Below, piece by piece: positions 1,831 to 20,388 of a DNA stretch of 44,269 nucleotides. Within the stretch, counting starts at the first letter, position 1. Each line of letters begins with the position of its first letter. The stretch spans positions 1 through 44,269 of the forward strand of contig JAGVOW010000108.1 in NCBI GenBank assembly GCA_020052515.1. The letters run 5' to 3'. Both the position numbers and the translations under genes were made by a program. The notes below the pieces were generated by a model. It was not told the origin of the DNA. It made no database searches and was given only the letters and a program-made list of their open reading frames with translations. Origin of the DNA: Brevinematales bacterium. GTDB taxonomy: Bacteria; Spirochaetota; Brevinematia; Brevinematales; JAOACQ01.

Positions 1831-2020
1831 AAATTACACCGGCCTACAGTTTTTTGGTTTTTAAAACTTTCCTTATTATAAATCACTTTATTTTTTTAAT
1901 CCACCAAAAATTAGTTATCAGCGAGCCTGTTTTAAGATAGCGGGCTCATAAACCGAGAATATAAAGAATAAAAGTAACTAGTCGGCTGATCAAAAATTTT
2001 CCATTTTGGGAGACGTTGGA

Positions 2021-2149: not shown

Positions 2150-2176
2150 CTGAATAGTCACTAATTGAGATGGTTT

Positions 2177-3700: not shown

Positions 3701-3710
3701 GGGTAAATAA

Positions 3711-5522
3711 ATGAGATTTTTCCTCCTCTCTCTCCTTTTTCTTTTCTTCGAAAATTCTTTGTTCTCCTCTCAATTTACCCTGAAAGGCTGGGAATATGAA
3801 ACAAAACTTTCTCATCAGGGGCATCCTATTACTGCAGATGACATCTATTTTTTAAAAACGGCCGTATTAAACGGAAAAATTTTTCTGTTTTACAAAAACC
3901 ACGACAGCTTAATGGCTTTGCAATTTGAGAATAACAAAGTAGCCGCTGTCCGGGAAATCCAGAAAATTGATAAATTTACACTGCCTGTCATTAAAGCAAA
4001 CAGCAACATTTTAAGCATACTTTTTTATTTAAATGGGTATTATCAATTAATGATGGGCGAGTCAGGGCAGCTGGATAAAATGCGCACCATTTATTCCTTT
4101 CCCTACCCGATGAATTACAATTCTGATTTATTTGTTCAAAACCATGACATTGTCATTTCTTTGCCGGTCATTATCAATGAAAAACCGGCAATAAAAATTA
4201 AAGCCCTTGAAAAAAAACAAGGGAACTACACCAGCAGAGACTGGGATATCTCGGCGCCGGATGAACGCGACAAAGGCATTTTCTTTTTTAGAATGTTTAA
4301 AGAAAATGATAAATATTTCAGTTATTTTATCAAACGTTTTTATGACAGTTCCTTAAAGCAGATCAGGGACTCTCTTTGCTATTTCCAGACTTCAGATTTT
4401 TCACAGATAAAAAACGCAAAACCAAATTTACTCATCCCATTTGGATGGAGCGATCACCCGCCCGATATTTTATCTTATCAAGGGAACATCACTATTTTAA
4501 TATCCAGAAAGAGAGATTCTGCCTATTTGCTCCGGCTGCTTTCGGACAAAAATAAAATCGAATATCCGATCAGTCAGGAATATATCAACGCCTACAGCCC
4601 GGTTTATTTATTTGAAAATGGAATCCTGGATTTGTTTTACCTGGGAAACTTAGGGGGGAAATCTCAAATTTACCACCGAAAAATTGATTTAAACCGGATC
4701 GATCAAATTGACAGCCTCTCCTCTGATTTTAGTAATATCGCGGCAACAAAACCAGATAATAATGTATACGCCCTATCTCTGTGCAAAAAAGGATCGGAAT
4801 CTTACATCTTCTATATCTGCTCAAATGATGGAGCTATCTATTACTCGAAAACAGACCGCAGCGTTCAAGGCCTTCAAATAGAAAAAGAATTAAAAATAGA
4901 AAATAATGAAGAATACTACGATTTCGCATGGAAAATACCAGATGACCCATCCGGTATTTCCGGATATTCTTACATCATTGACGACAAACCGGACACCCTG
5001 CCTGTGATTGTAAATCTTTCCGCTCAGGAACGGTTTGTAAGTACAAAGCACTTAAAAAAAGAAGGAGATTACTTCCTGCACATCAAAGTAATAGACGGTA
5101 TTGGAAATTCTGGGCCAGTAGAGCACATTGTCTTTTCAACCGGAAAAGTAAGTGAAAAAACTATCTTTGCCCGGATCAATGAAAGTACCTCTCAGTCAAA
5201 AATCAACAAGGCCATTGAGTTTATAAATTCGGAACTCTCGCTATCCAATGATTATGAAAAAGGTTCCTACCTGGCTTTGCTGAATTATTATAAAGAAGTG
5301 GAAAAAAATATAATGGAAAAAAATTATTCTTTGGCCAGGAAAAATTTAAACCGATGCATACTGATTGATCCATTTCGCATGGAAACAGCGCTCTATCTTC
5401 AGTTAATAAAAAAAGAAGAAGAAAACCCCTTTTATAAATACCAGATGCTCTTGAATATTTTCTTATTTCTCGCTTTAATTTTATTATTATCATTATTGTA
5501 TGGAGTGTTTGCAAAATTATGA
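3711..5522 (+). CDS. exported protein with Ig-like domain and C-terminal membrane anchor
   Basis: 603 aa, not assigned to a named family. It starts with a signal peptide (MRFFLLSLLFLFF, cleavage probably after the SLFSS region). A long beta-rich body (about residues 20-385) follows, with repeated YLNG/FYL strand patterns that may form a propeller. Next is a fibronectin III or Ig-like segment (about 395-475: FAWKIPDDPSGISGYSY, then YFLHIKVIDGIGNSG). After a helical TPR-like stretch, one strongly hydrophobic helix closes the protein at about 580-600. This suggests an extracytoplasmic domain anchored at its C-terminus. It follows the SpoIIE gene by 10 bp and overlaps the next gene by 4 bp, so all are probably co-transcribed. 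A sensing or envelope role is inference. Confidence 0.75.
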   Translation: MRFFLLSLLFLFFENSLFSSQFTLKGWEYETKLSHQGHPITADDIYFLKTAVLNGKIFLFYKNHDSLMALQFENNKVAAVREIQKIDKFTLPVIKANSNILSILFYLNGYYQLMMGESGQLDKMRTIYSFPYPMNYNSDLFVQNHDIVISLPVIINEKPAIKIKALEKKQGNYTSRDWDISAPDERDKGIFFFRMFKENDKYFSYFIKRFYDSSLKQIRDSLCYFQTSDFSQIKNAKPNLLIPFGWSDHPPDILSYQGNITILISRKRDSAYLLRLLSDKNKIEYPISQEYINAYSPVYLFENGILDLFYLGNLGGKSQIYHRKIDLNRIDQIDSLSSDFSNIAATKPDNNVYALSLCKKGSESYIFYICSNDGAIYYSKTDRSVQGLQIEKELKIENNEEYYDFAWKIPDDPSGISGYSYIIDDKPDTLPVIVNLSAQERFVSTKHLKKEGDYFLHIKVIDGIGNSGPVEHIVFSTGKVSEKTIFARINESTSQSKINKAIEFINSELSLSNDYEKGSYLALLNYYKEVEKNIMEKNYSLARKNLNRCILIDPFRMETALYLQLIKKEEENPFYKYQMLLNIFLFLALILLLSLLYGVFAKL

Positions 5523-6007
5523 AACCATTAATTCTGACCGCGTTCTGGATCTTTTTTTTGGCCACTTCACTATGGCCAGATATCACTGTTGCCTATTATA
5601 AGAATTTTAAACTGTTTCCCGACATGGATGAAAAAGATATTCAGGAGTACAAAAAGTTTCAGTTGACCGGCTATTCAGAATCTGATATTCTCGAAAGATT
5701 GCAGAATAAATACTTCTTTTCCATACCCGCTTTTGACACTTCACTTTCAAATTATCAATATGGGTGCGTTCGGGCCACCGAAGACAAAGAGAAGAACAGC
5801 ATCACAATAGAAGAACCGGTAACAGGTTTTTCCATTGAAATGATTTTTGCTCTGTTTGAAAATAAAAAGATAATTCGAAGCAAAACCATTAAACATCTTG
5901 GAAAAGTGATTGATATTGTTAATTATGGTTACGACAAAAAAGGGGGAATGATTTCGATTAAATCTAGATTGTACCCACCCCCGGCCCCTCCCAAAAGGGG
6001 AGATTAA
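5519..6007 (+). CDS. small exported protein of unknown function, C-terminus made by a repeat
   Basis: 162 aa. The ATG overlaps the previous stop codon in an ATGA arrangement, so translation is probably coupled. An N-terminal signal peptide (about residues 1-20) is followed by an alpha/beta region with no recognised motif. The last eleven or so residues (YPPPAPPKRGD) are encoded by the palindromic repeat at 5974-6005, which also lies just upstream of the stop. The native C-terminus was therefore probably replaced when this repeat arrived. I cannot name a function. Confidence 0.7.
   Translation: MKPLILTAFWIFFLATSLWPDITVAYYKNFKLFPDMDEKDIQEYKKFQLTGYSESDILERLQNKYFFSIPAFDTSLSNYQYGCVRATEDKEKNSITIEEPVTGFSIEMIFALFENKKIIRSKTIKHLGKVIDIVNYGYDKKGGMISIKSRLYPPPAPPKRGD
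5974..6005. repeat. short GC-rich dispersed repeat (copy 2)
   Basis: CCCCTCCC and AGGGGAGATT face each other around AAA. Related copies lie at 2116-2149 and 14206-14235. This copy supplies the end of the preceding reading frame and lies close to the start of the following gene. Confidence 0.6.
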
Positions 6008-6067
6008 TAACAAAGGACTTGGAGGTCTCCTATTATATTACGCTGGCTTAAATTAGCGATAATAACA

Positions 6068-8722
6068 TTGTTCTTCATAGCTGTCTTTTCAATGAGCTGG
6101 AGCAGGACTTTAAATGAAATTAAAAGTTCCGGCTACCTTGCCTTCGCTGTAAGCGACCATTTTTTCCATTATACACTGGCTCAGAAATTCGCGGAATCCA
6201 TCGGTGTCAAGCCAAAATTTGTCTGGGTTTATCCGGGGGATTACTTTAAAAAAGATATTGTCGGAAATCCTTTGCTTTTATCAGATGTGGATATTTATGC
6301 CGGCCACATTTTACTTCCGGCTGGATTTAAAAACAGGGTTTTATTTGCCCCTCTTTTTCCTACAATCAAAGTCTGTGTCTATAGAGCTAGAACGTCTATA
6401 AACGCGCTGGACGTGACAAAAATCAAAGCCGGCCTTCTGGAAGAAGAAGACAAACAAGCTTCGGATTGTGAAAATCAGATCCGTAATCTTCAAATCGGAT
6501 CTATTGATTTTATTATAATGGATAGTGACCTCGCCCTTTATTATTCAAAAAAGAATATGGGTTTATCAGTTAACATAGATATTCTAAAAGATCTCGCTTT
6601 GATCCATGAAGCAGGATGGGTATTTCCCAGAGAGAATATTGACTTGAAGAAGGTTTTCCTCGATTTTGTAAAATCAGAAAAAACAAATCATGCATTTTAT
6701 ACTTTGTGGGAGCATAACTATGAAATACCTTACAAAGAGTACGAAGATACTCTAAACATTATTTCACAAAGAGGAGACGACCTATTTAGGAAAAGCCTGG
6801 ACTATGCATTCAACAAACAATACTCGAACTCACTTACCCTTCTTCAAAGCGTAAAAAAAATGAATTTAGCATCCGAAAGAATAGAGCGTCTCTACGACAC
6901 AATTTATATAAATTGGCTCAAAGACACAAAAGGTATTCAAAACCAGATCTCTATATTAGACAGCTATATGAAATCAGATTTTTCAGATTATTTTATCCGT
7001 TATTTAAAAGAAAAACATCCCGGCTTACTCAGGCAGTATCTTGCCAGCTTAAAGAAAGAAAGAGAACAAAGTTTAAAAAATCGCCGAATTTCAGAAGCGA
7101 TTGCCGCACAGGCTATTATCTCTTCATTTAATCCAGACACTGCTGTTGAAAAACAGATATATGATGATATTTATCTGGTTATGCTCGAATCCAGCGAAGA
7201 GTCCAATAGCCAGAACTCTCTGGAATTGCTGGAGAATTATGTAAAAGAAAAGCCTTCTACCTACTTCTTCAGAAAACTCAAGAAAAAATTGCCTTCTCTA
7301 TACAATGATTACCTCAATAGTCTTCAAACAGAGCAAAATAACGCTCTTAGAATAAAGGATTTAGACCGCGCGGAAAAACTCCAGGAAACTATTTTTTCTA
7401 TGAACCCGGATTCTTTTGAAGAAATGAATAAACTGGCCATTTTAAGAAATAAAAATAAAATTTTAAAATTGTCTGCCAATCAGGAAAAAGAAATGCCGGA
7501 AGAAGAAACATTGAATTTTATCCAGCTCCAATCAAACAATCTCTACGAAATAAAAACCCTTCCCAATGAAAACCAGGTCAATATTGAAAAAATAATAAAT
7601 GAAGGCGAAAAAGCTATAGAAAATTACGAAGGAGAAAGATACTACAGGCTTGGAATACTGTATTTTGAAGAAAAAAATTACACAGAAGCTCTGAGTGCCT
7701 TTCAAAGCGCAAAGAGCATGAGTTATAGAACCAACGAAAGCTTTGATTATATTAATAAGATCATCGCTATCTTAGAACAAAAAGAAAAGGAAAAAAACGA
7801 AGCTAAACTGAAGAATTTCAATGAGTTTTTCGGCAAAGCCATTTCCTATTTTTTGAAAGAAGATTATTCTCAGGCTCTGGAAAGTATTCTTGCCTGCCTG
7901 AATCTGTTTCCGGAGAACCAGGAGGCAAAAAAATACAGCCGGATCATTTCGGACAATCTTTATCTGGAAGGCGAAAAAACTATCGCTTCCTCTTCTCCTT
8001 ATTATTACTTTTATTTAAACAGAATGAATACCGCGGAAGTTCTTATAACAGAAAGAAAATACGGTGACGCAAAAAAGATTTTAGAGGAAATCCTTTCTGT
8101 TTTCCCCAATCATGAAATCACGAAACAGAAATTGATCTTCTGCCTTTTGAAGTTAGACCCTTCTGTTTTGAACAAAATTCAGAAAGACTACTTTGAAGAA
8201 GCAAAAATCCTGATAAAACAGGAAAAATTGAAAGAAGCTAATATTAAATTTTCTCTTATAAAAAAACTTAATTCGGATTTTCCCGAAATTGATAAATATT
8301 TAGACGCAACAAAAACCGTAAGGGAAGAGCTCCCAAGAAGAGAAAAAACTTCTGAATTCAAATACGAAGAAACCCTAAATCAAGCAAATAAACTTTATGA
8401 AAAAGGAAATCTAACTGAATCATTACGGTTATATAAAAGAATTTTAGATTTTATGCCGGATGATTATAAAGCCATTGTCAATTCCAGCAGAATTGAGAAC
8501 CAGATCATGCTCCAAAAAAATCAGGGAAATACGAAGTATACCGCCTCCCCCATTCGAGAAAAAGCGGAAAACTTTTACTTGAAAGGCCAATTCTATTTTC
8601 GGATTAAAGAATACAAGAAAGCTCTCGAAATGTGGGAAGAATCCTGCCGGATTGATTCTTCTTATAGAAAAGCGTTTATTGATATCAAGAGAGTAAAAAA
8701 AATATTGGCCTATTTGGAATAA
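6068..8722 (+). CDS. periplasmic solute-binding-like domain fused to TPR repeats
   Basis: At least 884 aa. The N-terminal part (about 1-220) looks like a family 3 periplasmic solute-binding domain: SGYLAFAVSDHF, AQKFAESIGVKPKFVW and a DVDIYAG loop, then a second lobe with IDFIIMDSDLA. The rest is long, highly charged TPR/coiled-coil helix, ending in a clear TPR (FYFRIKEYKKALEMWEES). The first conventional start is TTG 6068. However, a strong GGAGGT at 6021-6026 points to an ATT codon at 6032 in the same open frame, which would add RWLK and give a proper signal peptide. It closes the operon that begins at 2177. Ligand unknown; a sensor or scaffold feeding the SpoIIE phosphatase is inference. 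Confidence 0.8.
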   Translation: MFFIAVFSMSWSRTLNEIKSSGYLAFAVSDHFFHYTLAQKFAESIGVKPKFVWVYPGDYFKKDIVGNPLLLSDVDIYAGHILLPAGFKNRVLFAPLFPTIKVCVYRARTSINALDVTKIKAGLLEEEDKQASDCENQIRNLQIGSIDFIIMDSDLALYYSKKNMGLSVNIDILKDLALIHEAGWVFPRENIDLKKVFLDFVKSEKTNHAFYTLWEHNYEIPYKEYEDTLNIISQRGDDLFRKSLDYAFNKQYSNSLTLLQSVKKMNLASERIERLYDTIYINWLKDTKGIQNQISILDSYMKSDFSDYFIRYLKEKHPGLLRQYLASLKKEREQSLKNRRISEAIAAQAIISSFNPDTAVEKQIYDDIYLVMLESSEESNSQNSLELLENYVKEKPSTYFFRKLKKKLPSLYNDYLNSLQTEQNNALRIKDLDRAEKLQETIFSMNPDSFEEMNKLAILRNKNKILKLSANQEKEMPEEETLNFIQLQSNNLYEIKTLPNENQVNIEKIINEGEKAIENYEGERYYRLGILYFEEKNYTEALSAFQSAKSMSYRTNESFDYINKIIAILEQKEKEKNEAKLKNFNEFFGKAISYFLKEDYSQALESILACLNLFPENQEAKKYSRIISDNLYLEGEKTIASSSPYYYFYLNRMNTAEVLITERKYGDAKKILEEILSVFPNHEITKQKLIFCLLKLDPSVLNKIQKDYFEEAKILIKQEKLKEANIKFSLIKKLNSDFPEIDKYLDATKTVREELPRREKTSEFKYEETLNQANKLYEKGNLTESLRLYKRILDFMPDDYKAIVNSSRIENQIMLQKNQGNTKYTASPIREKAENFYLKGQFYFRIKEYKKALEMWEESCRIDSSYRKAFIDIKRVKKILAYLE

Positions 8723-8989: not shown

Positions 8990-9745
8990 ATGAAGCTTTT
9001 ATTTTATTTGCTGGTTTTATTTATTACTTCCTGTTCTTCCATTATAGATCTGGAAAATAAAGTTTTTCCTAAAAATGAAAACCCCTTTTCATCCCCTTTC
9101 AATATATGGGAACTACTGCCGGTAGAAAATTTAAAAGGGTATTGGAATTTTAACTCGGGAAACGCAGACGATTTAAGTGGAAACAGTAATAACGGAACCC
9201 CAGCAAATGGAGCGGTTTTAACAGCGAGCGGTTATAAAGGAAGCTATGCTTATCAGTTTTCATATTCCACTCAAGCTTATATCAGCATCCCCTACGCCCT
9301 CTCTCAAGACGCCATGAATGAGCTGACATTGATGGCCTGGGTCTATCCAACCTCATGGGATAACACTGCCTGGCATTACAATCGAATTATTTCCAAGCAG
9401 CCTGTATACATACTCAGAACAGCTAATGACGGGATACCGGAATTTGTTATTCAGACAACTTCTCATGGCTACCAATCTGTCGCGGACAGCGAAAAGATCA
9501 GCTTGAGTAACTGGCATTTTATCGCGGGGACCTTCGATGGAAAAATTTTAAGTCTTTATGTCGATGGAGTATTAAAAGCGAGCAATGGCCTGGGAGTGAC
9601 AGATACAATTCAGACAAATGCAGCTTCTATACGCATTGGAGATAATCCCGCTTTAATGGAAGGTTTTACAGGAAAGATCGACGAGATAACCGTCTGGAAT
9701 AAAGCTATTTCCAACGTTTTAGTACAAACGTTATATAATCAATAA
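8990..9745 (+). CDS. lipoprotein with LamG (concanavalin-like) domain
   Basis: 251 aa. The signal peptide ends in a lipobox with the modified cysteine at residue 15 (FITSC). After it comes a short linker, IIDLENKVFP, whose pattern is shared with the lipoproteins at 9847 and 11813. Residues about 45-250 form a LamG/jelly-roll lectin-like domain: LKGYWNFNSGNADDLSGNSNNG, then LTLMAWVYP, WHFIAGTFDGKILSLYVDG and GKIDEITVWNKA are the hallmark strands. Such domains usually bind carbohydrate or protein ligands on the surface. Unlike the next two lipoproteins, it is not followed by a barrel gene. A surface location is inferred. Confidence 0.88.
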   Translation: MKLLFYLLVLFITSCSSIIDLENKVFPKNENPFSSPFNIWELLPVENLKGYWNFNSGNADDLSGNSNNGTPANGAVLTASGYKGSYAYQFSYSTQAYISIPYALSQDAMNELTLMAWVYPTSWDNTAWHYNRIISKQPVYILRTANDGIPEFVIQTTSHGYQSVADSEKISLSNWHFIAGTFDGKILSLYVDGVLKASNGLGVTDTIQTNAASIRIGDNPALMEGFTGKIDEITVWNKAISNVLVQTLYNQ

Positions 9746-9747
9746 AT

Positions 9748-9816
9748 ATCCTACCAAAGGTAGGATAAAAACAGTACTCAAGGCAGCTTGTTTAAATCGG
9801 ATTTTTATAATAAAAT
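9748..9816 (+). promoter_or_regulatory. hairpin plus promoter leader of the Kelch lipoprotein
   Basis: A perfect hairpin ATCCTACC-AAA-GGTAGGAT (9748-9766) follows the LamG stop codon. It is followed by a segment (AAGGCAGCTTGTTT) that recurs before the lipoprotein at 11813, and then by TTGTTT (9788-9793), a 17-bp spacer and TAAAAT (9811-9816). The equivalent elements at 11715-11783 have the same order and spacer length. Confidence 0.65.
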
Positions 9817-9846
9817 AAATAGAACACAAGAGAATGGAGGTCACTT

Positions 9847-10863
9847 ATGAAAAGCCCTAATAGCTTTTTAAAGACGATTTTGATTTTAGGCGCTTTGACT
9901 TATATTTCTTCCTGCGGAAATATAAATGATTTAGAAAAAAGTATTTTTCCTGATTCACAAAACACATCTCCCAACGGATCTACCAACAGGGGCGCGGATT
10001 GGGTTCAGGCTACAGCCTCCGCGGCTTTTCAAACCCGCTACAATCACCAGGCATTAGTGTTTAACAACAACATGTGGGTAATCGCCGGAGGATCAGGCTC
10101 TGGCGGCTTTGGAGACGTTTGGCACTCTGCCAATGGCATCAATTGGTTTCAAGCTACAAACTCCGCTTTTTATCCTCGGAGAGAACACCAAGCACTTGTG
10201 TTTTCAAATCAGATATGGGTTATCGGAGGCGCTCGTCCATATACTAACTATGCGACAGATGTGTGGTGTTCCTCAAATGGTACAAACTGGTCTTTAGCCG
10301 CAGGCTCAGCCGAATTTTCCCCTCGCGCCTGCCATAGGGTAGTCGCATACAATGGAAAAATGTGGGTCATTGGCGGCGCCATACAAGGAATCACTAACAC
10401 AAACGATGTATGGACATCCTTCAATGGTATTAGCTGGACTAATGTCACTCCAGCGGCCGCTTTTTCCCCCCGTTATGATCATGCGGCAGTTGTTTTTAAT
10501 AGCAATATGTGGGTTATCGGCGGGCATACTTCTTCAGGTGAAACTAATGACATATGGTATTCCAGCGACGGTTTTACCTGGAATTGCGCCATACAAGCCG
10601 CTAATTTTTCCCCTCGTTACGGCCATTCAGCCGTTGTTTTTGAAAATAAAATCTGGATTATGGGGGGACAATGGAGCGGAGGTTATACAAATGACGTTTG
10701 GAGCTCAGTTGATGGCACCAATTGGACACAAGAATCTCCCGCGGCGGCTTTTACTCCTCGTTACGGCCATTCAGCCGTTGTTTTTGACAGCAGAATGTGG
10801 GTCATTGGCGGCGTGGCATCTCCTCTATGGGGCGGCAACAACGACGTATGGTATGAGCAATAA
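9847..10863 (+). CDS. Kelch-repeat lipoprotein
   Basis: 338 aa. Signal peptide with lipobox cysteine at residue 23 (TYISSC), then the linker INDLEKSIFP shared with neighbouring lipoproteins. The rest is six tandem Kelch blades of about 48-50 residues, each with a PRxxHxAVVF strand, a WVIGG core and a DVWxSxDGxxW strand. They would close as a six-bladed beta-propeller, a fold that usually binds other proteins or glycans. Two blades share a 32-bp stretch of identical DNA (10612-10643 and 10756-10787), 144 bp apart, so at least one blade was duplicated recently. A good GGAGG precedes the ATG. Paired with the barrel gene 31 bp downstream. Confidence 0.9.
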   Translation: MKSPNSFLKTILILGALTYISSCGNINDLEKSIFPDSQNTSPNGSTNRGADWVQATASAAFQTRYNHQALVFNNNMWVIAGGSGSGGFGDVWHSANGINWFQATNSAFYPRREHQALVFSNQIWVIGGARPYTNYATDVWCSSNGTNWSLAAGSAEFSPRACHRVVAYNGKMWVIGGAIQGITNTNDVWTSFNGISWTNVTPAAAFSPRYDHAAVVFNSNMWVIGGHTSSGETNDIWYSSDGFTWNCAIQAANFSPRYGHSAVVFENKIWIMGGQWSGGYTNDVWSSVDGTNWTQESPAAAFTPRYGHSAVVFDSRMWVIGGVASPLWGGNNDVWYEQ

Positions 10864-10894
10864 GCTCATATCCCAAATTTTAGAGGTGTAATTC

Positions 10895-11707
10895 ATGAAA
10901 AAAATTCTCCTGGCTTTTCTGTGTTTTCTTTGTGCTAATCTTTCTTTTGGAAATGTACAGTTGTTTGTTAAGCCAGGAGCCAATTTTTACGGAGACTCTA
11001 TAGGCTATCAGGTTCAACTAGGAGCTCAGGCAAATTTAAATTCATTACTCTCTTTTGTTCCCACAGGCCTTTTTGGCGGAGTTACAATCGGAATGCTGGG
11101 AGCTTCTCTTTCGAACTTTTCTCTCCTTGGTGAAAGCGCAACTTTAGGTCTGGGTTATCGCTTCCCCATTACAAAAATTTTTATTATTTCCCCCTGTTTC
11201 AGCGCGGGAGGAGGGCATATGGGTTTCAGAAAAGACCCCTTTTTTGCTGAAAAGTGGTTTCTCTCTTTTATGACTTCTGTAGAGTTTGAAATTTTATTAA
11301 ATAAAAATTTCTCCCTGGGAATGGATGTGGGCTACAATTTCTTTACACTGGATGTATACAATGGAGGCTTATTCAATCTTTCTCTGAAACTTTCTTACCT
11401 CTTTTCCGGCTCTTCGGACAATATTACAAAAGACAATGAAACAAACATCCAAACAAACACCATAAAAGAAATAAGCATGGAAACCAATTCATCAGTAATA
11501 ATAAATTTAGTAAAAAAACCGACCCGGAAATACCCGGCCGCCGAAATACAACAAATGACTGTCTCTGAAATTACAGCACTCGCTAAATGGGCAATGCAGG
11601 AAAATGAAAGTGAACACGCAAAGCTTTTAGTAAAAGAAGGATTGGTCAAAGAGCCGGATAACAATGAGTTGCTATCACTGCTGACCAAATTGATGACTGA
11701 TAAATAA
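10895..11707 (+). CDS. outer-membrane barrel-like protein with TPR-like tail (copy A)
   Basis: 270 aa. A cleavable signal peptide (ending near NLSFG) is followed by about 165 residues of alternating, glycine- and aromatic-rich strands (FVKPGANFYGD, ATLGLGYRFPI, FSLGMDVGYNFFTLD), as in small eight-stranded outer-membrane barrels. After a polar linker, the last about 60 residues are helical and TPR-like (ITALAKWAMQENESEHAKLL). They are almost identical in protein and DNA to the end of the gene at 13361, whereas the barrel parts differ much more. RBS AGAGGTG. It follows the Kelch lipoprotein and is probably co-transcribed. A partner or anchor role for that lipoprotein is inference. Confidence 0.8.
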   Translation: MKKILLAFLCFLCANLSFGNVQLFVKPGANFYGDSIGYQVQLGAQANLNSLLSFVPTGLFGGVTIGMLGASLSNFSLLGESATLGLGYRFPITKIFIISPCFSAGGGHMGFRKDPFFAEKWFLSFMTSVEFEILLNKNFSLGMDVGYNFFTLDVYNGGLFNLSLKLSYLFSGSSDNITKDNETNIQTNTIKEISMETNSSVIINLVKKPTRKYPAAEIQQMTVSEITALAKWAMQENESEHAKLLVKEGLVKEPDNNELLSLLTKLMTDK

Positions 11708-11714
11708 TTGGAAA

Positions 11715-11783
11715 ACCCTCCCCAGGGTATGATAAAAACCATCCTTAAGGTAGCTTGTTTTCAATTGAATTGTACAGTAAAAT
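11715..11783 (+). promoter_or_regulatory. hairpin plus promoter leader of the beta-helix lipoprotein
   Basis: Hairpin ACCCT-CCCC-AGGGT (11715-11728), then GATAAAAACC and AAGGTAGCTTGTTT, then TTGTTT (11755-11760), a 17-bp spacer and TAAAAT (11778-11783). The order and several blocks of sequence match the leader at 9748-9816. Confidence 0.65.
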
Positions 11784-11812
11784 GAATAAAATAGTAAAAA
11801 AAGGAGATGTTT

Positions 11813-13348
11813 ATGAAATTTTGTAAAATAATTTTAACTCTTGGTGCTTTGAGCTACTTTTTTTCCTGCAGTGGGGTAGCGGATCTAAAAAACCAGATTT
11901 TTCCGAATGAAAAGACATCTTACCCCTCGTCTTCAGCCCTTATAATCTATGTGGCTACAAATGGGAATGACTTAAACAACGGCACCAACGCAAACGCCCC
12001 ATTATTAAACATTCAAACAGCTATAGACAGAACAAGCGTAAGCGGGACAATGATTCGCATCGGCGCCGGGACTTATACCCCTGGAGCAGGCTTGAACTTT
12101 TTGTCAAACGGCATTAGTATTAATGGAAAGCATAATTTAACATTGTCAGGCGGTTATAACCCTGATTTTACAGCAAATACCGGCTTGGCTATTTTAGATG
12201 GCTCCAGCACTCTTTACCATGTTGTCAACGCGAAATACCTGGCCAATTTAACAATAGAAGGGATGATTATTCAGGGAGGCAATGCTTCTGTTAATGATGG
12301 GGAAAATAGCTTTGGAGCGGGAATTTACTTAAAAGGCGTCTCAAATAGTATTTTTTCAAATTGTGTAATAAATAATAATGTGGCAACCAACAATGGCATA
12401 GGAGGCGGTTTATACGCGGAAGATTCCAGCTATAATACATTCTCTTTGACTATTTCAAACAACTTTGCGTTGATCAGCGGGAATGCCGGAGGCCTTTACA
12501 TCACTAACGGCAATAGCAACAGTATATTGGGGCGTATTTCTGAGAATAAGATTCAGAGCGGATTGGCCACGGGATGTTTTATTCAGGGAAACTCCAATTA
12601 TATCAACACGGTGATCAGCAATAATATTTCAATAGTCTCAGCCGCCGGAAACGGTATTTACCTATCAGGAGACTATAATCTCCTTATGGGTTATATCCAA
12701 AACGCGGCAATGGGCAGCCAGGGCGCTTTTATAATCGGCAGCCGCAATTCATTCTCGGGGTTAATCGCCAATTCTGGCGGAACGAGAGGCCTGAGCCTTC
12801 AGGGTGACAGCAATATTATATCAGGCAATATAAGTAATTGCAGTTTTTCTATTACACCTCAAGAAGTTAAAGGAGCCGGGATTTCGGCCATTGGAAATTA
12901 TAACACCATTACCGCAAACGTGATGGACTGCAATATTAATAACAATGGCAATCCGCCAAAAGGCATCGGGTTATTTATATCAGGTAATAATAATATTGTC
13001 AGCAATAACAGGATAACAAGGAACAATATATCGACCGGGGGAGCATTTCACACTAACTCATACGGCGGCGGGATTTATTTAAGCGGCACAAACAATTATA
13101 TCAATAGTATTATTACGGGAAATGACTCGAAGGGATACTATACTAACGACACTTTGTCATATATGGGCTTCGGAGGCGGAATTTACCTGGATTCCCTCTG
13201 TTTAAACAATGTCATCGCCGGCATCATAAGCAACAATACAGCTTCCGGTTTTGGCGGCGGCCAGGGCGGCGGGATTTACAATGCCGGAGGCGCCGTGACT
13301 ATAACCGCTCTCGTAACAAACAATTTCCCGGATAACATAAAACCATAG
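11813..13348 (+). CDS. lipoprotein with right-handed parallel beta-helix
   Basis: 511 aa from ATG 11813. An ATG at 11807 is in frame but directly abuts the ribosome binding site AAGGAG (11801-11806), so the second ATG, six bases further on, is preferred. Signal peptide with lipobox cysteine at residue 19, very similar to that of the Kelch lipoprotein (ILTLGALSYFFSC), then the linker VADLKNQIFP. From about residue 40 a DUF1565-type start (IYVATNGNDLNNGTNANAP) leads into a long series of short repeats rich in N, G, I and S (such as YNTF, NIVSNN, GGGIYL), the signature of a parallel beta-helix. Such folds occur in surface adhesins and polysaccharide-acting enzymes; no catalytic residues are recognisable. 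Paired with the barrel gene 12 bp downstream. Confidence 0.88.
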   Translation: MKFCKIILTLGALSYFFSCSGVADLKNQIFPNEKTSYPSSSALIIYVATNGNDLNNGTNANAPLLNIQTAIDRTSVSGTMIRIGAGTYTPGAGLNFLSNGISINGKHNLTLSGGYNPDFTANTGLAILDGSSTLYHVVNAKYLANLTIEGMIIQGGNASVNDGENSFGAGIYLKGVSNSIFSNCVINNNVATNNGIGGGLYAEDSSYNTFSLTISNNFALISGNAGGLYITNGNSNSILGRISENKIQSGLATGCFIQGNSNYINTVISNNISIVSAAGNGIYLSGDYNLLMGYIQNAAMGSQGAFIIGSRNSFSGLIANSGGTRGLSLQGDSNIISGNISNCSFSITPQEVKGAGISAIGNYNTITANVMDCNINNNGNPPKGIGLFISGNNNIVSNNRITRNNISTGGAFHTNSYGGGIYLSGTNNYINSIITGNDSKGYYTNDTLSYMGFGGGIYLDSLCLNNVIAGIISNNTASGFGGGQGGGIYNAGGAVTITALVTNNFPDNIKP

Positions 13349-13360
13349 GGTGAAGCTAAG

Positions 13361-14146
13361 ATGAAAAAAGTTATTTTAATTTTATTATTCTTTTACGCTA
13401 ATTTTTCGTTTGGGAATATGCAGGTATTTTTGAAGCCGGGAATCGATTTTTACTCAGATAAAATCGGCTATAACGGCGAATTCGGCCTTCAGGCAGATTT
13501 GAACCCGCTGCTTTTTTTTGTGCCTTCGGGTTTTTTCGCAGGCTTTACGGTGGGCATCTTTGGCTCTTCTCTTTCCAATTTTTACTTTTTGGGAGAAAAC
13601 CTGAATTTGAATATTGGTTATCATTTTAATATCGCAAAGAATTTTACTATTTCTCCTTATTTATCAGGAGGCGGCGGACACATCGACTTCTGGGAAGAAC
13701 CAAAGCATGCCGATAAGTGGCTTCTTTCTATTGCCCCTTCCATTGAGTTTCAAATCTTATTAAACGACAATTTCTCCGTCGGAATAGACAGCGGCTATCG
13801 CTTTTTTACATTAGACATCGGTAATGGCGGTGTACTAACTACTTCCCTGAGATTTACTTATCTTTTTTCTGATCCGCAAAATCATTCTAAAAAAACGAAC
13901 TCCAATCAGATGAATCTTCAAACCAATTCATCAACAATAATAAATTTAGTAAAAAAACCGATCCGGAAATATCCGGCCGCCGAAATACAACAAATGACTG
14001 TCTCTGAAATTACAGCACTCGCAAAATGGGCAATACAGGAAAACGAGAGCGAATACGCAAAGCTTTTAGTAAAAGAAGGTTTGGTCAAAGAACCGGATAA
14101 CCCGGAATTATTGTCCATTTTGACAAATTTAATGAATAAGAAGTGA
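13361..14146 (+). CDS. outer-membrane barrel-like protein with TPR-like tail (copy B)
   Basis: 261 aa and a paralogue of the protein at 10895-11707. It has a signal peptide (ending near NFSFG), a barrel-like region with the same strand order (FLKPGIDFYSD, LNLNIGYHFNI, SVGIDSGYRFFTLD), a shorter polar linker, and the same helical tail (KYPAAEIQQMTVSEITALAKW). It starts 12 bp after the beta-helix lipoprotein, the same lipoprotein-then-barrel order as in the first pair. The tail-coding DNA (from about 13920 to 14100) is nearly identical to the other copy, which suggests gene conversion or strong constraint on this part. Confidence 0.8.
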   Translation: MKKVILILLFFYANFSFGNMQVFLKPGIDFYSDKIGYNGEFGLQADLNPLLFFVPSGFFAGFTVGIFGSSLSNFYFLGENLNLNIGYHFNIAKNFTISPYLSGGGGHIDFWEEPKHADKWLLSIAPSIEFQILLNDNFSVGIDSGYRFFTLDIGNGGVLTTSLRFTYLFSDPQNHSKKTNSNQMNLQTNSSTIINLVKKPIRKYPAAEIQQMTVSEITALAKWAIQENESEYAKLLVKEGLVKEPDNPELLSILTNLMNKK

Positions 14147-14314: not shown

Positions 14315-15289
14315 ATGGATTTTGCTGAAATTCAGGTCTATTCAGAAAAATTAATTGCCAATATTGAAAAAGTCATTGTTGGAAAGAGAACGGTGATTGA
14401 GAAAGCGCTCACCTCTTTTTTCTGTAGAGGCCATATTCTGATAGAAGACGTTCCAGGTGTCGGTAAAACCATGCTGGCTCGCGCTATCGCAAAATCGATA
14501 GACGCGAATTTTAGAAGAATCCAGGGAACTCCGGACTTATTGCCGGCGGATATTCTAGGAGTCTCTATTTATAACCCGGATACAAAAAAATTCGAATACC
14601 GCAAAGGCCCTATTTTCTCACAGATTGTTCTTGTAGATGAAATCAACCGCGCGACGCCAAAGACCCAATCCGCTCTATTGGAAGCTATGGGTGAAACACA
14701 AATTTCCGTAGAAGGTGTTTCCATCCCTTTGCCGGAACCTTTTTTCGTGATCGCTACAGAAAACCCTATTGAATTTGAGGGAACTTTTCCCCTTCCAGAA
14801 GCACAGATGGATCGTTTTTTTGTCAGCATTTCGCTGGGTTACCCTTCCGCGAAACAAGAAGAAGAAATCATCATGATGCAGAACCAGGCCCATCCTATTC
14901 ATTCTCTTTGCCCTGTTGCTAAAACAGAAGAAATTATTAACATTCAGAATTTGATTCATAAGGTACATGTCGATAATACATTACGCGAGTACATAGTATC
15001 AATTGTAGGGAATACCCGTCAGGATCCCAACCTTCTTCTTGGTTCTTCACCAAGAGGAAGCCTTTGCCTTTACAAAGCATCACAGGCTTATGCCGCGATT
15101 CAGGGAAGGGATTATGTGATTCCGGAGGATATAAAAAATCTGGCGGTAGAAGTGTTAAAGCACAGAATTATCCTTCGCTCTGAAGCAAAACTCAAAAACT
15201 TAAAACCGGAAAATGTGATTGAGCGGATCCTGGCCAGCCTGCCGGTTCCATTAAAAGAAACCGATTCTAAAACAGCCCCGCAGCAGTAG
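14315..15289 (+). CDS. MoxR-family AAA+ ATPase
   Basis: 324 aa, the normal length for the family. Walker A is seen in DVPGVGKTMLARA (about residues 47-59), Walker B in ILVDEINRATPKTQSALLEAM (positions about 106-126), and sensor 1 in FFVIATENPIEFEGTFPLPEAQMDRF. The C-terminal helical lid contains GSSPRGSL. MoxR ATPases act as chaperone-like remodelling enzymes that work with VWA-domain proteins and are usually encoded beside DUF58 and VWA genes, as here: DUF58 follows 12 bp later and a VWA protein lies at 18685-20373. The client is unknown. Confidence 0.95.
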   Translation: MDFAEIQVYSEKLIANIEKVIVGKRTVIEKALTSFFCRGHILIEDVPGVGKTMLARAIAKSIDANFRRIQGTPDLLPADILGVSIYNPDTKKFEYRKGPIFSQIVLVDEINRATPKTQSALLEAMGETQISVEGVSIPLPEPFFVIATENPIEFEGTFPLPEAQMDRFFVSISLGYPSAKQEEEIIMMQNQAHPIHSLCPVAKTEEIINIQNLIHKVHVDNTLREYIVSIVGNTRQDPNLLLGSSPRGSLCLYKASQAYAAIQGRDYVIPEDIKNLAVEVLKHRIILRSEAKLKNLKPENVIERILASLPVPLKETDSKTAPQQ

Positions 15290-15301
15290 GAATATTGTTT
15301 T

Positions 15302-16483
15302 ATGGGAATTTCAAGGTTTGTTTTGCTGCTATTCCTTCTCTTGCTGAATTTCTTGTTTATTGATTTTCCCGGAGCGAAGATCGCGTTCTATGGAGTGTTG
15401 GCCGCGTTGTTTTCCAATTACTTATACAAAAGATTGATCGCAAAAAACTTTCAAATACGGCGGGATTCTGAAACTTATAAGATATTCGCCGGCATCCGCG
15501 AAGTCAACACATTGGTAGTTTCCAATCCAACCCTCTTTCCGGTCCATGCCCTGAGTGTAATCGACTATACGGATCTCAACATATCCACTGAACAAAGCCA
15601 CCCATCCTTGATATCCGTGCCTTCTTATGGAGAAAAAAGGTTTGACTATCTCATTAATGGAAGAAAAAGAGGGAAATACAAAACAGGCCCCTCTATTGTA
15701 AAATTCAAAGACTTGATGGGGCTTTTTTCCTTTGAATACGAATTTGATACGATAAAGGAAATTATTGTTTATCCAGATATTATCAAAACCGTAAACATTC
15801 CCTTTAAAAGCATGCAGCCGCTGGGCGCAATCAAAAACAGAGTGCCTATTTTTGAGGACCCTTCGATTATCACCGGATTAAGGGAATACCAACTGGGAGA
15901 TGAAATCAAAAGGATCAACTGGAAGATTTCCGCGAAATATGACAAATTTTTAGTCAACACCTATCAGCCGACTATTTCATCAGGAAGCCTTATTTTCCTC
16001 AATCTGCTTGAGACAGATTACGATTACAAAAATAAAGAATACTATATAGAACGGGGAATAGAAACCGCGGCCTCTTTAGTCAGTCAGTTTTTTCTTCTCC
16101 GCCAGGATATAGCTTTTGTCTCAAATTGCCGTATTGACAATGAAGACAATGTCTTATCCACACCTTTAGGAAAAGGGAAAGAGCATTTCTCTGATATTTT
16201 AACCCAGATGGCAATTATGGAGCCGGCCAGGAAAATGCGGGTCAGTGAAGCTATCGGCATAGCGGAATTAAGCATCCCATGGGGCGTTAGTATCTATGTA
16301 CTGACTCCCAGATTATCCGAAGCGGATTTATTTCAATTGGTAACTTTTCAGAAATCCGGGCACACGATCGTTATTATCAACATTGGGCCGGAAATCAGAA
16401 GAGACTTAAGCTTATGGAATGTAGGTTTTTTAAGTTACTACGCGGAAATACAAAACGGCTTTGTCAGCCTTATGAAAATCTAA
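15302..16483 (+). CDS. DUF58 membrane protein
   Basis: 393 aa. Two membrane helices near the N-terminus (about 5-40) are followed by a beta-rich region and the DUF58 signature around residues 198-222: GLREYQLGDEIKRINWKISA, then FLVNTYQP. The C-terminal half has a VWA-like alternating fold. The conserved G-x-R-x-Y-x-x-GD-x-x-R-x-I-x-W pattern is intact. DUF58 proteins are standard companions of MoxR ATPases. The gene lies 12 bp after moxR and 10 bp before the next gene, so the three are co-transcribed. Confidence 0.93.
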   Translation: MGISRFVLLLFLLLLNFLFIDFPGAKIAFYGVLAALFSNYLYKRLIAKNFQIRRDSETYKIFAGIREVNTLVVSNPTLFPVHALSVIDYTDLNISTEQSHPSLISVPSYGEKRFDYLINGRKRGKYKTGPSIVKFKDLMGLFSFEYEFDTIKEIIVYPDIIKTVNIPFKSMQPLGAIKNRVPIFEDPSIITGLREYQLGDEIKRINWKISAKYDKFLVNTYQPTISSGSLIFLNLLETDYDYKNKEYYIERGIETAASLVSQFFLLRQDIAFVSNCRIDNEDNVLSTPLGKGKEHFSDILTQMAIMEPARKMRVSEAIGIAELSIPWGVSIYVLTPRLSEADLFQLVTFQKSGHTIVIINIGPEIRRDLSLWNVGFLSYYAEIQNGFVSLMKI

Positions 16484-16493
16484 GGGGTTTAAG

Positions 16494-18035
16494 ATGAACA
16501 CAGCGCGTAAAGAAAGCGCAAGAATTTTCAATATCTTTCTCTGGCTGACCGCTTCCTCGGCAACCGGCATTGTTTTCTACAGCACCGCTTTATTCTTCCC
16601 GGATTCAGGCGATTCCCTGCTCTGGATCAATTTACTCATTTATCTCATAGTTCTAATTATTCTAGCTCTTTTTTCGGCCCAAAAACTGGGCGGATTTTGG
16701 AAGGGCCTTTTCGGCCTATCCATTTCATTAGCTTTCATTTTTGCCGGGAAATACATATCCACTTTTTTTAGCTCACCAGAAAGCCAGAACAACCTTTCTG
16801 TATTATGGACTTTCATAATCGGCGCCGGAATTTTTGTAATTGCGGGCTCCATTGTTGGGTTTTTGAAGAAAAAGCGGGAAAGCGCGCTACAGATCCTTGA
16901 AGAAAGTAATCTTTCTATCGCGCAGGAGAATTATTCCAGATTGATTAAAAAAGAAGGAGAACATCAGGAAAACGCGGAAAAGACTATGCCGAAAGTTATT
17001 GGTAAAGGCCTGTCTTCTCTGGCATTTCTTGTCCTGACATTGACCTTTATCTCAATCATTAAAAACCCTTCGGCAAAGTATTTTCATTCCATTTTTCTCT
17101 TCGGTTTTGCCCTGGGCGGATTTGGCGTTTACTTAATCTTTTATCAATTTTCTTCTCTGGTACAATGGAAATTTCTGGGCTATACCGTAAAAGAAGACGT
17201 TATTCTCAATTGGAACCGCTTGATTAAGCTGCTTTATATTCCCTTAATTCTAGTTCCGCTTTTCATTCCATGGAATTTTAGTGTTTTAAAAACTCAAAGT
17301 TTTACGGATTTTGCGAATAAACAGGCTTTAAAACTGGAAGTGTTTATCTATCCTGATATGGCAACTAATGCCAATGTTCTGGCAAAGCAAAAAGCCTATG
17401 AAAATCAGGCAGGGGCTTCACTTCAGATCAGGAATTTTCTGAGGACTACTATGAATTATTTCTTTTTCATCCTGATATTTCTGCTTTCGATATACTTACT
17501 GCTATCGATCATTGGGTTTTTCTTTTATGTCCGTTACAAGAACAAAGAAAAATCCGTTGTCGCCCTGTTTTTCATTAACCGGTACCAGGCATTGCTGACT
17601 TTCCTCAACATCACAGGAGAAGTATTGGTTACTATTATTACCGGCCTGCTAAAACTTTTTGGATTTTTAAAAGAGAAAAAAGAGGTCGATGACAAAAAGA
17701 ACAAGCAGATTGAAAAAGAGCTATATTCTCTCTTTGATGAATTTCAAAATCTTCCCGACGCGAAAAAGAAAGAAATCAAAACCATTATCAATCTTTTTGT
17801 CCGCTTTATAGAAATCGCTAACCGCTTTCTTACTCCTTATTATTTCTTTTACGGGCCGACGGAATATATTTACAAAATCATTACTCTGCTGCCTTCTTAT
17901 AAAAATGAATTGCAAGAGATAGCTGCTGTTTTTAACGAAAGCCGGTACAGCCTTCATCTCATCAGCGACGAAAGAATAGAGAAATTCCGGTCTAATATTG
18001 AAATGATGACTACCGTCATCAGCAAAGGCCCTTAA
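16494..18035 (+). CDS. polytopic membrane protein with DUF4129-like C-terminus
   Basis: 513 aa. About eight or nine hydrophobic helices (four before residue about 125, then more between about 170 and 380) separated by basic loops. The C-terminal cytoplasmic segment from about residue 405 (YSLFDEFQNL) to the end contains GPTEYIYKI and, further on, NESRYSLHLIS. This resembles the TP-x-E-F ... RY pattern of DUF4129, a domain usually found after transglutaminase domains in MoxR-DUF58 operons. No transglutaminase Cys-His-Asp is visible. The assignment is moderate. Its stop is 4 bp from the stop of the convergent leucine-rich repeat gene. Confidence 0.75.
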   Translation: MNTARKESARIFNIFLWLTASSATGIVFYSTALFFPDSGDSLLWINLLIYLIVLIILALFSAQKLGGFWKGLFGLSISLAFIFAGKYISTFFSSPESQNNLSVLWTFIIGAGIFVIAGSIVGFLKKKRESALQILEESNLSIAQENYSRLIKKEGEHQENAEKTMPKVIGKGLSSLAFLVLTLTFISIIKNPSAKYFHSIFLFGFALGGFGVYLIFYQFSSLVQWKFLGYTVKEDVILNWNRLIKLLYIPLILVPLFIPWNFSVLKTQSFTDFANKQALKLEVFIYPDMATNANVLAKQKAYENQAGASLQIRNFLRTTMNYFFFILIFLLSIYLLLSIIGFFFYVRYKNKEKSVVALFFINRYQALLTFLNITGEVLVTIITGLLKLFGFLKEKKEVDDKKNKQIEKELYSLFDEFQNLPDAKKKEIKTIINLFVRFIEIANRFLTPYYFFYGPTEYIYKIITLLPSYKNELQEIAAVFNESRYSLHLISDERIEKFRSNIEMMTTVISKGP

Positions 18036-18039
18036 GAAC

Positions 18040-18624
18040 CTATCGGCGGCCCACCGGCAATAATTCCCCATTTAATAGATACCATTTTTCTTTTTCTTCC
18101 TGGGGAATCTCATAAAATTTTCCACCCCGGTCATAAATCTGAAGTTTGTCTGTAAATTTCCAATACTTGAAACTATCCACACTGACAGCAACGCCCAGAA
18201 GGATCAATTCCTTTAGACTGGTTAAATTATCTATCCCCGCCAGAGAACGAATCGGATTTTTACTGAGATCCAGGACACTTAATTCCGGAAGATTGCTAAG
18301 GGAAGAAATATCAGAGACAAAATTGTCCGCTATCGAAAGCTTACGTAAATTACTGAGTTGAGATAGAGACGCGATGTTACTGATGCGATTGTTAAAAAGG
18401 TCCAAGCTCACCAGCTTACTCAGTTTGCCCAAATCCGATATGTCATAAATCCGGCTGCCCGTTAATGAGAGATTGGTAATTTGCGCAAGATCTGACTTTG
18501 TATAGGCACTCAAAGTTATACGAAGACTCTTGTCCTTAATATCCCTTAAAGAAAATTCTTGAGAAAACAAGCTCCCCATTAAAACAAAGCCCAGAATTAA
18601 AACAAAACTAATAGACCGCTTCAT
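18040..18624 (-). CDS. exported leucine-rich repeat protein
   Basis: 194 aa. A signal peptide (about 1-20, ending near GSLFS) precedes about five 22-residue leucine-rich repeats of the SDS22/internalin type (LTGSRIYDISDLGKLSKL, LDLFNNRISNIASLSQL, LDLSKNPIRSLAGIDNL). There is no lipobox cysteine at the cleavage site. A short C-terminal extension ends the protein. Such proteins bind other proteins; the partner is unknown. Strong RBS AAGGAGGG just upstream of the ATG. It lies downstream of the VWA gene on the same strand but is separated from it by a likely terminator. Confidence 0.88.
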   Translation of the reverse strand: MKRSISFVLILGFVLMGSLFSQEFSLRDIKDKSLRITLSAYTKSDLAQITNLSLTGSRIYDISDLGKLSKLVSLDLFNNRISNIASLSQLSNLRKLSIADNFVSDISSLSNLPELSVLDLSKNPIRSLAGIDNLTSLKELILLGVAVSVDSFKYWKFTDKLQIYDRGGKFYEIPQEEKEKWYLLNGELLPVGRR

Positions 18625-18656
18625 ATTGCCCTCCTTACCGCATTATTTTAAAACAG

Positions 18657-18686
18657 AAAAATAAAAGCGCAATGCTTTTTTATTTT
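18657..18686 (-). terminator. AT-rich hairpin terminator after the VWA gene
   Basis: On the minus strand AAAATAAAAAAGC pairs with GCTTTTATTTT across an ATTGC loop, ending in a T-rich run. It begins at the stop codon of the VWA-TPR gene and lies before the leucine-rich repeat gene. The stem has a two-base bulge and few GC pairs. Confidence 0.5.
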
Positions 18687-20373
18687 ACCATTCATTTTTT
18701 GGATAAACCCGGATGGTTTTATCGCGCTGTTTCTTTCTCAGATGCTTCTTTTCATCTTCCTCTATCAGGTTTAATAGATTTTGTACATCATTTTGCGTGA
18801 GGGGTTTTGTTGATTTCTGCTGATCTTCGTTCTGCGGTTTCTGCTTTTGAGAGTTGCTCTGATTTTTTTGATCCGCTTTATTTTTATCTTGCTTCTGGCC
18901 GTTCTTCTTTTGATCATTTTTCGAATCACTCTGATTCTGCTGTTCTCTTTGCTGCTGCTTTGCGTAAAGAAGATTCTGCAAAGCCTTTTTGTATAAAACA
19001 TTTCCCTCTTTTTCATTCGAGAGAACATCACGATATGCCGATGCCGCGCCTCCAAAATCCTTCCTTTCCAGAAAAGCATTCCCCAGATTATAAAGCGATT
19101 TTTGTCTGAGATTCTGATCTGAAGAATTGGTAAGCCCTGAGTAAGAATTGGCCGCCTCATCATAATTTTTCAGCTGATAGAAAGCGTTGCCTTCATTGAA
19201 AATGAGTTTTTTATCCTCAGGGGATTTAACTACTGATTTTTGAAAATGTTTCAACGCCTCTTCGTAATTGCCTTTTTTATATTCCCTTACCCCTTCTGAT
19301 GCATCCGAAGAAAAAGATCTATTTGCCAGACAAAAAAACGTAAAGAAAATGACCAGGCTCAAAGCAGTTTTTTTTGTAAAGACAAGGCGTCTTTCCGGAA
19401 GGAAAAGAAAAATAAAAAGAAATAATACTCCTATCAGCAAGAAATATTGATACTGCGGCTCCATAAATTCAAACACATTGTTGCCGAAGCGGGATTTTTT
19501 GATCTCGTTTAATTTTTTTGAAAGCGCAACAATTGAATCCTCATTGCCGCTAAAGTACAATCCCCTTGTTTCTTCCGCCATCCTCTTAAGCAGATTTTCA
19601 TTCAATTTTGAAATCACAATTTTGTTATCCTTCTTCAAATAGTCTAAGAAATTTCCTTTTTCATCAAAAAGCGGAATAGAAGCGCCGTTAGGTGTGCCTA
19701 ACCCCACTGTAAAAAGGGAAACCCCCATTTCCTTCGCGATTTTCACCTGATCTCGCGGCGAAAATTCATAATCCTCTCCGTCCGTAAAAAGCACAATCGC
19801 TTTATGAGTCAGAGCGTCTTTCTCAAAAAGGCCCAGAGCTTTCCTCAGGGAATCTTCCAGATTCGAACCCGCTACATCTATCATATCAAAGGAAAGTTCA
19901 TTTAAGAAAACCATTGCCGCATCGATATCCGCAGTGAGGGGAATCACATTGAAAGCAAACCCTGAAAATGCCGTCATCCCTACCCTGTTGCCCGCGAGAA
20001 GGCTTAAGAGTTGAACAGAAAGCTTTTTAGCCAGATCCAGCCGGGAAGGCACAACGTCTTTTGTCGCCATACTTCTGGAAATATCCATTACAAACACAAC
20101 ATCAATTCCCTCTATTTCCGCCTGCAGGTTTTTTGTGCCCCAGCGCGGGTCCAGAACCGCGAAAGAAACAAAAAAGAATGCTAGAATCAAAGAAACAAAA
20201 CGCGCCAGCCTGAAATTTTCATTCAAATTTGAAAAAACGAGTTTCTGCTGGCTTTTTGAAAAGAGGCTCTTTCTAAAAAGACCCCTTAAATAATAAGAAA
20301 AAATAACCAGGAAAGAAAAGATAATAAAAACAATTGAAACGAAGAGTACCAGGCTTTCATTCGCCAGACGCAT
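18685..20373 (-). CDS. BatB/BatC-like VWA-domain and TPR fusion protein
   Basis: 562 aa. Two membrane helices (about 7-30 and 60-78) are followed by a VWA domain (about 88-290) with an intact metal-ion site: DISRS (DxSxS), a downstream threonine in VGMTAFSG, and LFTDGED. A further membrane segment (about 308-350) leads to three TPRs (YKKGNYEEALKHFQKS, then NAFYQLKNYDEAANSY). The tail is Q/K/N-rich and ends with LLNLIEEDEKKHLR, typical of BatC. BatB and BatC are separate in many bacteria and fused in others. These proteins are encoded with MoxR/DUF58 and linked to envelope integrity or stress, though the mechanism is unresolved. It follows the GGDEF-EAL gene by 15 bp. Confidence 0.9.
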   Translation of the reverse strand: MRLANESLVLFVSIVFIIFSFLVIFSYYLRGLFRKSLFSKSQQKLVFSNLNENFRLARFVSLILAFFFVSFAVLDPRWGTKNLQAEIEGIDVVFVMDISRSMATKDVVPSRLDLAKKLSVQLLSLLAGNRVGMTAFSGFAFNVIPLTADIDAAMVFLNELSFDMIDVAGSNLEDSLRKALGLFEKDALTHKAIVLFTDGEDYEFSPRDQVKIAKEMGVSLFTVGLGTPNGASIPLFDEKGNFLDYLKKDNKIVISKLNENLLKRMAEETRGLYFSGNEDSIVALSKKLNEIKKSRFGNNVFEFMEPQYQYFLLIGVLFLFIFLFLPERRLVFTKKTALSLVIFFTFFCLANRSFSSDASEGVREYKKGNYEEALKHFQKSVVKSPEDKKLIFNEGNAFYQLKNYDEAANSYSGLTNSSDQNLRQKSLYNLGNAFLERKDFGGAASAYRDVLSNEKEGNVLYKKALQNLLYAKQQQREQQNQSDSKNDQKKNGQKQDKNKADQKNQSNSQKQKPQNEDQQKSTKPLTQNDVQNLLNLIEEDEKKHLRKKQRDKTIRVYPKNEW

Positions 20374-20388
20374 GCATTACTCCATTTT

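Follow-up and report, generated by a model that had tools for sequence, protein, structure and literature searches.

The five genes at positions 8990-14146 of the window examined here encode three lipoproteins and two small outer-membrane proteins (OMP; called barrels below), and we think it probable that they represent a modular cassette in which the outer domain of a lipoprotein can be exchanged while its small barrel is kept. The window is the whole of contig 11 (C11; 44,269 bases) in the 2.6 Mb genome (99.6% complete; G000) of an uncultured spirochaete of the order Brevinematales. An open reading frame (ORF) check placed all five genes at the expected coordinates and in one direction (Table 1). 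A small barrel family that stays beside lipoproteins with differing folds and an anchor that is retained during swaps make a concrete candidate pair, here from an uncultured order of spirochaetes. The arrangement also outlines a route of surface diversification of lipoproteins, in which anchor and partner are retained and the outer domain is replaced.

The evidence for this cassette comes from a DNA comparison of 9744-11730 with 11712-14146. The upstream regions are 71-72% identical, the sequences coding for signal peptide and anchor 68% and the barrel genes 71%, but no homology was found within the passengers, and the homology breaks soon after the FP of the anchor. Because upstream region, signal, anchor and barrel are homologous but the passengers are not, the Kelch and beta-helix units are tandem duplicates with an exchanged passenger. 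The LamG gene has just signal and anchor, at the protein level, in common with these units and no promoter clearly similar to theirs. The original prediction, made from the sequence of this region, had proposed a repeated lipoprotein-barrel cassette with a swapped exposed domain, and a tandem duplicate of promoter, signal, anchor, swapped passenger and barrel agrees with it. The barrel bodies are saturated at synonymous sites, so the duplication is old. A third Kelch-lipoprotein/barrel unit lies on contig 55 (C55), with a Kelch domain 45-52% identical and a barrel 26% identical. This unit suggests that Kelch is the original passenger and the beta-helix the newcomer.

Table 1. Features of the lipoprotein-barrel cluster, in window coordinates
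Feature	Position	Strand	Basis
Lipoprotein 1: signal peptide, Cys at residue 15, anchor CSSIIDLENKVFP, LamG/concanavalin-like passenger	8990..9745	+	ORF; Pfam Laminin_G_3 (LamG_3) E 2e-24
Anchor-coding segment, lipoprotein 1 (C-x4-DL-x3-VFP)	9032..9070	+	exact pattern match
Upstream (promoter/ribosome-binding site) region, unit 1; 71% identical to 11712-11806	9745..9839	+	DNA alignment
Lipoprotein 2: anchor CGNINDLEKSIFP, six-repeat Kelch propeller passenger	9847..10863	+	ORF; Pfam Kelch_1 E 5e-28
Anchor-coding segment, lipoprotein 2	9913..9951	+	exact pattern match
Barrel 1: signal peptide, 8-stranded OMP barrel at residues 21-170, low-confidence helical C-terminal tail	10895..11707	+	ORF; AlphaFold (AF2) model, Foldseek
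Tail tract, 93.4% identical to 13920-14101, probable gene-conversion tract	11481..11662	+	DNA alignment; low synonymous divergence, saturated flanks
Upstream (promoter/ribosome-binding site) region, unit 2; homologous to 9745-9839	11712..11806	+	DNA alignment
Lipoprotein 3: anchor CSGVADLKNQIFP, right-handed parallel beta-helix passenger	11807..13348	+	ORF; Pfam Beta_helix E 0.004 and same-genome homologues
Anchor-coding segment, lipoprotein 3	11867..11905	+	exact pattern match
Barrel 2: 63% identical to barrel 1, layout alike	13361..14146	+	ORF; alignment
Partner of tail tract 11481-11662	13920..14101	+	DNA alignment

All three lipoproteins (CSSIIDLENKVFP, CGNINDLEKSIFP and CSGVADLKNQIFP) carry C-x4-D-L-x3-[IV]-F-P, which contains the linker described in the original prediction, and its distance to the lipid cysteine is the same in each. 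The cysteine stands in ITSC, ISSC and FFSC behind hydrophobic segments with a basic n-region; FFSC deviates from the strict lipobox, and such looseness is known among spirochaetes. Searched as degenerate DNA, the pattern has three exact matches in the 2.6 Mb genome, all in this trio, and the reversed pattern used as a control has none. The 11 one-mismatch matches in the genome are out of frame or not in lipoproteins (0/11 in-frame lipoproteins), and no exact match in the other 12 genomes of our order sample (13 genomes in four families, f1, to which this genome belongs, to f4) reads as a lipoprotein. When other lipoproteins of the genome were drawn at random in threes, 63/200,000 triples reached the summed anchor similarity of this trio. 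Signal and anchor align at 46% identity between the Kelch and beta-helix lipoproteins (E 4.5e-8) and at 41% between LamG and Kelch (E 2.8e-5), and the two signal peptides once described as almost the same are similar. The lipoproteome census covered 832 kb of this genome and about 518 kb of sister-family genomes. A looser form of the motif, C-x4-[DE]-[LIVMF], occurs in just one further lipoprotein among 37 predicted in the 832 kb. Across the sampled lipoproteomes of the two families it is present in 8/15 barrel-linked and 5/87 other lipoproteins (p 3e-5, with counts inflated by shared descent), and the excess is weak when counted by locus (p about 0.03). In the sequences covered, the exact linker is thus confined to the window locus, in keeping with the earlier expectation that it is not common in unrelated lipoproteins, and the looser anchor recurs elsewhere.

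The passengers behind this anchor are unrelated, as was first proposed. The Kelch passenger has no homology that we could find to the LamG or beta-helix passenger, and a weak full-length alignment of LamG with beta-helix (24%, E 0.002) is anchored in the common N-terminus. The six Kelch repeats are of the MWVIGG type, and the Kelch lipoprotein gene has a GC content of 47% compared with 38% in the barrel gene. Within the Kelch repeats, a 39-nt stretch at 95% identity between window positions 10605-10643 and 10749-10787 suggests recent homogenisation of the repeats. NCBIfam matches the Kelch domain weakly to BamI, which was taken as propeller similarity only. The Beta_helix match of lipoprotein 3 (E 0.004) is below the Pfam cut-off, and lipoproteins homologous to it elsewhere in this genome score as low as E 3e-17. 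A single-sequence fold of the beta-helix protein was too poor and was set aside, and a sequence search of the PDB returned no relative of this protein or of either barrel.

The barrel genes begin 31 bp (Kelch unit) and 12 bp (beta-helix unit) after their lipoprotein genes. The AlphaFold model has exactly eight strands over residues 21-170, with block pLDDT values mostly of 70-88. Its best PDB matches in Foldseek are Ail, OprF, NspA and the OmpA membrane domain, with a TMt of 0.67-0.69 for the OmpA transmembrane domain, NspA and OprF, and the match to Pfam PF13505 falls below its cut-off. The model thus indicates an OmpA/NspA-type 8-stranded fold of the OMP_b-brl clan. Pfam detected no C-terminal OmpA peptidoglycan-binding domain in either window barrel, and the helical tail has no relatives beyond its two window copies. 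An origin of the tail as an OmpA remnant had no more than chance-level similarity in its favour, and a phage origin of the barrel gave no match. The tails had been described as nearly identical. This holds for a tract of 182 nt, where the fraction of synonymous differences is about 0.25; it rises to 0.75 over the barrel body and to 0.85 across the final 21 codons (Fisher p 6e-8). Because the tract is 93% identical also at synonymous sites while its flanks are saturated, it was probably homogenised by recent gene conversion, and its identity does not reflect protein constraint alone. Constraint at the nucleotide level may be another cause, with gene conversion being the simplest reading. The idea that each barrel matches its own lipoprotein is not upheld, since gene conversion best accounts for the alike tails, the barrel bodies are saturated and the C55 unit couples the Kelch fold to an OmpA-tailed barrel and a different anchor.

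A search of the phylum with the full-length barrel alignment returned mostly OmpA domains and was repeated with a barrel-only profile. Among 296 spirochaete genomes, this profile found the family only in the genome studied here and four f3 genomes, besides two weak matches to different proteins. A same-strand lipoprotein adjoins the barrel at every locus found, namely C11 (twice), C55, G011:C183, the amylase operon of f3 (four genomes), G003:C29, G006:C8 and G003:C45. In G003:C29 and G006:C8 the lipoprotein gene lies 13-15 bp downstream of the barrel, and in G003:C45 a barrel fragment stands between two lipoproteins. Other OMP_b-brl proteins in the order, taken as controls, have no recognisable lipoprotein neighbours. 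The original prediction had made the presence of this family beside lipoproteins in other places a test, and every other locus found agrees with it. The C-terminal part of the barrel differs by locus, being a helical tail in C11, an OmpA domain in C55 and C183 (the C183 barrel aligns with that of C55 over its OmpA region) and nothing in f3. From these comparisons, the family is a lipoprotein-associated OMP of Brevinematales with an exchangeable periplasmic end. The f3 operon comprises several large alpha-amylase/CBM26/immunoglobulin (Ig)-like lipoproteins, the barrel and an Ig-like lipoprotein. With giant lipoprotein alpha-amylases (CBM26, Ig-like), the 8-stranded barrel and a choice-of-anchor-D-like lipoprotein, this operon (L029-L032 and L121, in f3 genomes) is a starch locus resembling Sus without SusC/SusD. 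Separately, a 375-aa protein of G048, from another family (L237 865-1992), begins with a TPR-like region and ends in a barrel that is distantly similar to the window barrel family; it has no lipoprotein neighbour.

Passenger swapping is not restricted to the window. Other anchors in this genome also bear Kelch and beta-helix passengers (C55, C33; C58, C66, C26). A second anchor, MRKxLFLLPAAFLxLxxC[GE]LFYPPAFYE or a close variant, bears several passengers in this genome: on C7 a BNR-propeller-like domain and one without assignment, on C26 a beta-helix and on C108 an F5/8-type domain. The LFYPPAFYE anchor has weaker relatives in f3 and, with a beta-helix, in G001, which belongs to another genus. 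The window cassette is thus one case of a wider habit.

The sequence shows an ancestral unit that comprised a promoter, a signal peptide, the lipid cysteine, the D-L-x3-[IV]-F-P anchor, a passenger and an 8-stranded OmpA-type barrel gene 12-31 bp downstream. This unit was duplicated in tandem, the passenger behind the anchor was exchanged in one copy (Kelch versus beta-helix), and part of both barrel tails was homogenised at a later time, probably via gene conversion. A third lipoprotein, which has the same anchor with a LamG passenger, is placed just upstream of the duplicated units. In the mechanism that we propose, the lipoprotein and barrel genes would be co-transcribed, the barrel would fold in the outer membrane, and the lipoprotein would be anchored in this membrane and probably displayed outwards. 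Contact between anchor and barrel might hold the passenger close to the barrel. By analogy with the f3 (sister-family) operon, where alpha-amylase/CBM26 lipoproteins surround the same barrel, the passengers may be polysaccharide- or surface-binding modules. Several points weigh against this picture. No barrel directly adjoins the LamG gene. The polarity of the passenger exchange comes from one outgroup locus, C55. The model of the barrel tail has low confidence, and both the barrel-lipoprotein pairing and the surface display are deduced from sequence. The C55 Kelch lipoprotein has a different anchor without DL and is paired with a barrel carrying an OmpA tail; the lipoproteins beside the C29 and C8 barrels also have no DL anchor. 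The anchor is therefore not obligatory for linkage to a barrel.

Plain tandem duplication and domain shuffling without functional coupling is a possible but less favoured explanation. Signal peptide and anchor would be no more than inherited 5' ends, the passengers would have recombined in or after the linker, and the barrel would be a passive neighbour. The tandem homology takes in the promoter, the same passengers occur with other anchors and the LFYPPAFYE anchor with different passengers in this genome, and adjacent lipoproteins elsewhere in the order share anchors along with homologous passengers, that is, by descent. All of this fits inheritance alone. However, the adjacency of barrel and lipoprotein is kept at all loci despite divergence of the barrels to about 21-28% identity, which is not expected of passive neighbours.

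A role of the linker as a barrel-docking or sorting signal is suggestive only, and our confidence in docking, in which the anchor is read by the barrel, is much lower than in the module. It is doubtful that C-x4-[DE]-[LIVMF] is a sorting, surface-export or barrel-docking signal, a spirochaetal counterpart of the lipoprotein export signal (LES) of Bacteroidota that is read by the barrel or by a general flippase. The looser motif is enriched beside barrels, and the distance from the cysteine is fixed across three unrelated passengers, but the enrichment shrinks when loci are collapsed, paralogous descent inflates the counts, and the C55 and C29/C8 lipoproteins are without the motif. Like the window anchor, the LES is short and acidic, and its position relative to the lipid cysteine is fixed (PMC5080379). 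Its chemistry is different, C-x-K-(D/E)2-x compared with D five residues after the cysteine, then a hydrophobic residue and [IV]FP; CSSIID, CGNIND and CSGVAD have neither C-x-K-(D/E)2 nor Q-A-(D/E)2 right after the cysteine (PMC5080379). A wider version is rather unlikely. In this version, small 8-stranded barrels of Brevinematales would be generic docking partners that read the anchor C-x4-[DE]-[hydrophobic] (DLxxx[IV]FP here), with their periplasmic ends exchanged too. If it were true, any passenger fold behind the anchor would be a working surface module, a plug-in surface display unlike Sus, Slam or LES.

It is improbable that the barrel is a translocator of the neighbouring lipoprotein, that is, a small Slam-like or RcsF/OmpA-like device through the outer membrane. 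The adjacency of the genes provides the same genomic argument as for Slam (PMC5449769), and spirochaetes have surface lipoproteins without a known Slam; their sorting and display in its absence is an open question (PMC7857515). Slam combines a 14-stranded DUF560 barrel with a TPR domain at its N-terminus, and a TbpB-like barrel domain is common to its substrates (PMC5449769). In contrast, the window barrels have eight strands, which leave no lumen for a folded protein, a C-terminal tail, no N-terminal (TPR) domain, no Pfam match (Slam/DUF560 included) and unrelated passengers beside them, and in the amylase operon a single barrel would have to handle as many as four large lipoproteins. An antigenic or phase-variation array with passenger exchange as an ongoing switch would fit tandem units with a gene-conversion-like tract, but we give it hardly any credence because no long inverted repeats or silent cassettes were found around the units, the tract is in the predicted periplasmic tail and not in the exposed part, and the duplication is old.

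The modular cassette can also be compared with other known systems. In the Sus/polysaccharide utilization locus (PUL) utilisomes of Bacteroidota, SusCD forms outer-membrane complexes with glycan-binding lipoproteins and glycanases of the cell surface (PMC7618045). The window resembles them in that an outer-membrane barrel is encoded with several lipoproteins of unlike folds, here LamG, Kelch and beta-helix, and in f3 alpha-amylase and CBM26 lipoproteins. This is a resemblance in working only, since the barrel is of the 8-stranded OmpA type and not a large SusC transporter barrel, and neither a SusC TonB-dependent barrel nor a SusD lipoprotein was present among the scanned proteins of the window neighbourhood or the amylase operon. 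OmpA/OprF-type anchors (8-stranded barrel with a periplasmic OmpA domain) are similar in barrel fold, and the C55 member carries the OmpA peptidoglycan-binding domain. The window barrels, however, end in a unique helical tail where those anchors have the OmpA domain, and they are coupled to lipoproteins.

Other loci and the surroundings of the cluster provided further observations. Genes for LFYPP-type lipoproteins with different passengers directly follow a gene for a secreted protein that has a barrel-like C-terminus and no Pfam family, in this genome (L208 75-1475 with 1501-3095, G000:C7) and in G001 (L210 3-2727, G001:C16), and the secreted proteins are 37% identical between the two genera. 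This may be a second lipoprotein-barrel pairing, although a paralogue on C59 has no lipoprotein neighbour. L127, L128 and L131 (G011, G003, G009) contain tandem giant lipoproteins of a common anchor type, CxxRDF..NPVL, near genes resembling a SpoIIE-type phosphatase and an anti-sigma ATPase. In the window, the region before the lipoprotein cluster (2165-8722) encodes a SpoIIE/HAMP phosphatase, two proteins without an assigned family and a TPR-repeat protein of 884 aa. Directly after barrel 2 (14315-22071) are MoxR ATPase, DUF58, VWA/TPR and GGDEF-EAL genes, with a partial likeness to a Bat-type locus.

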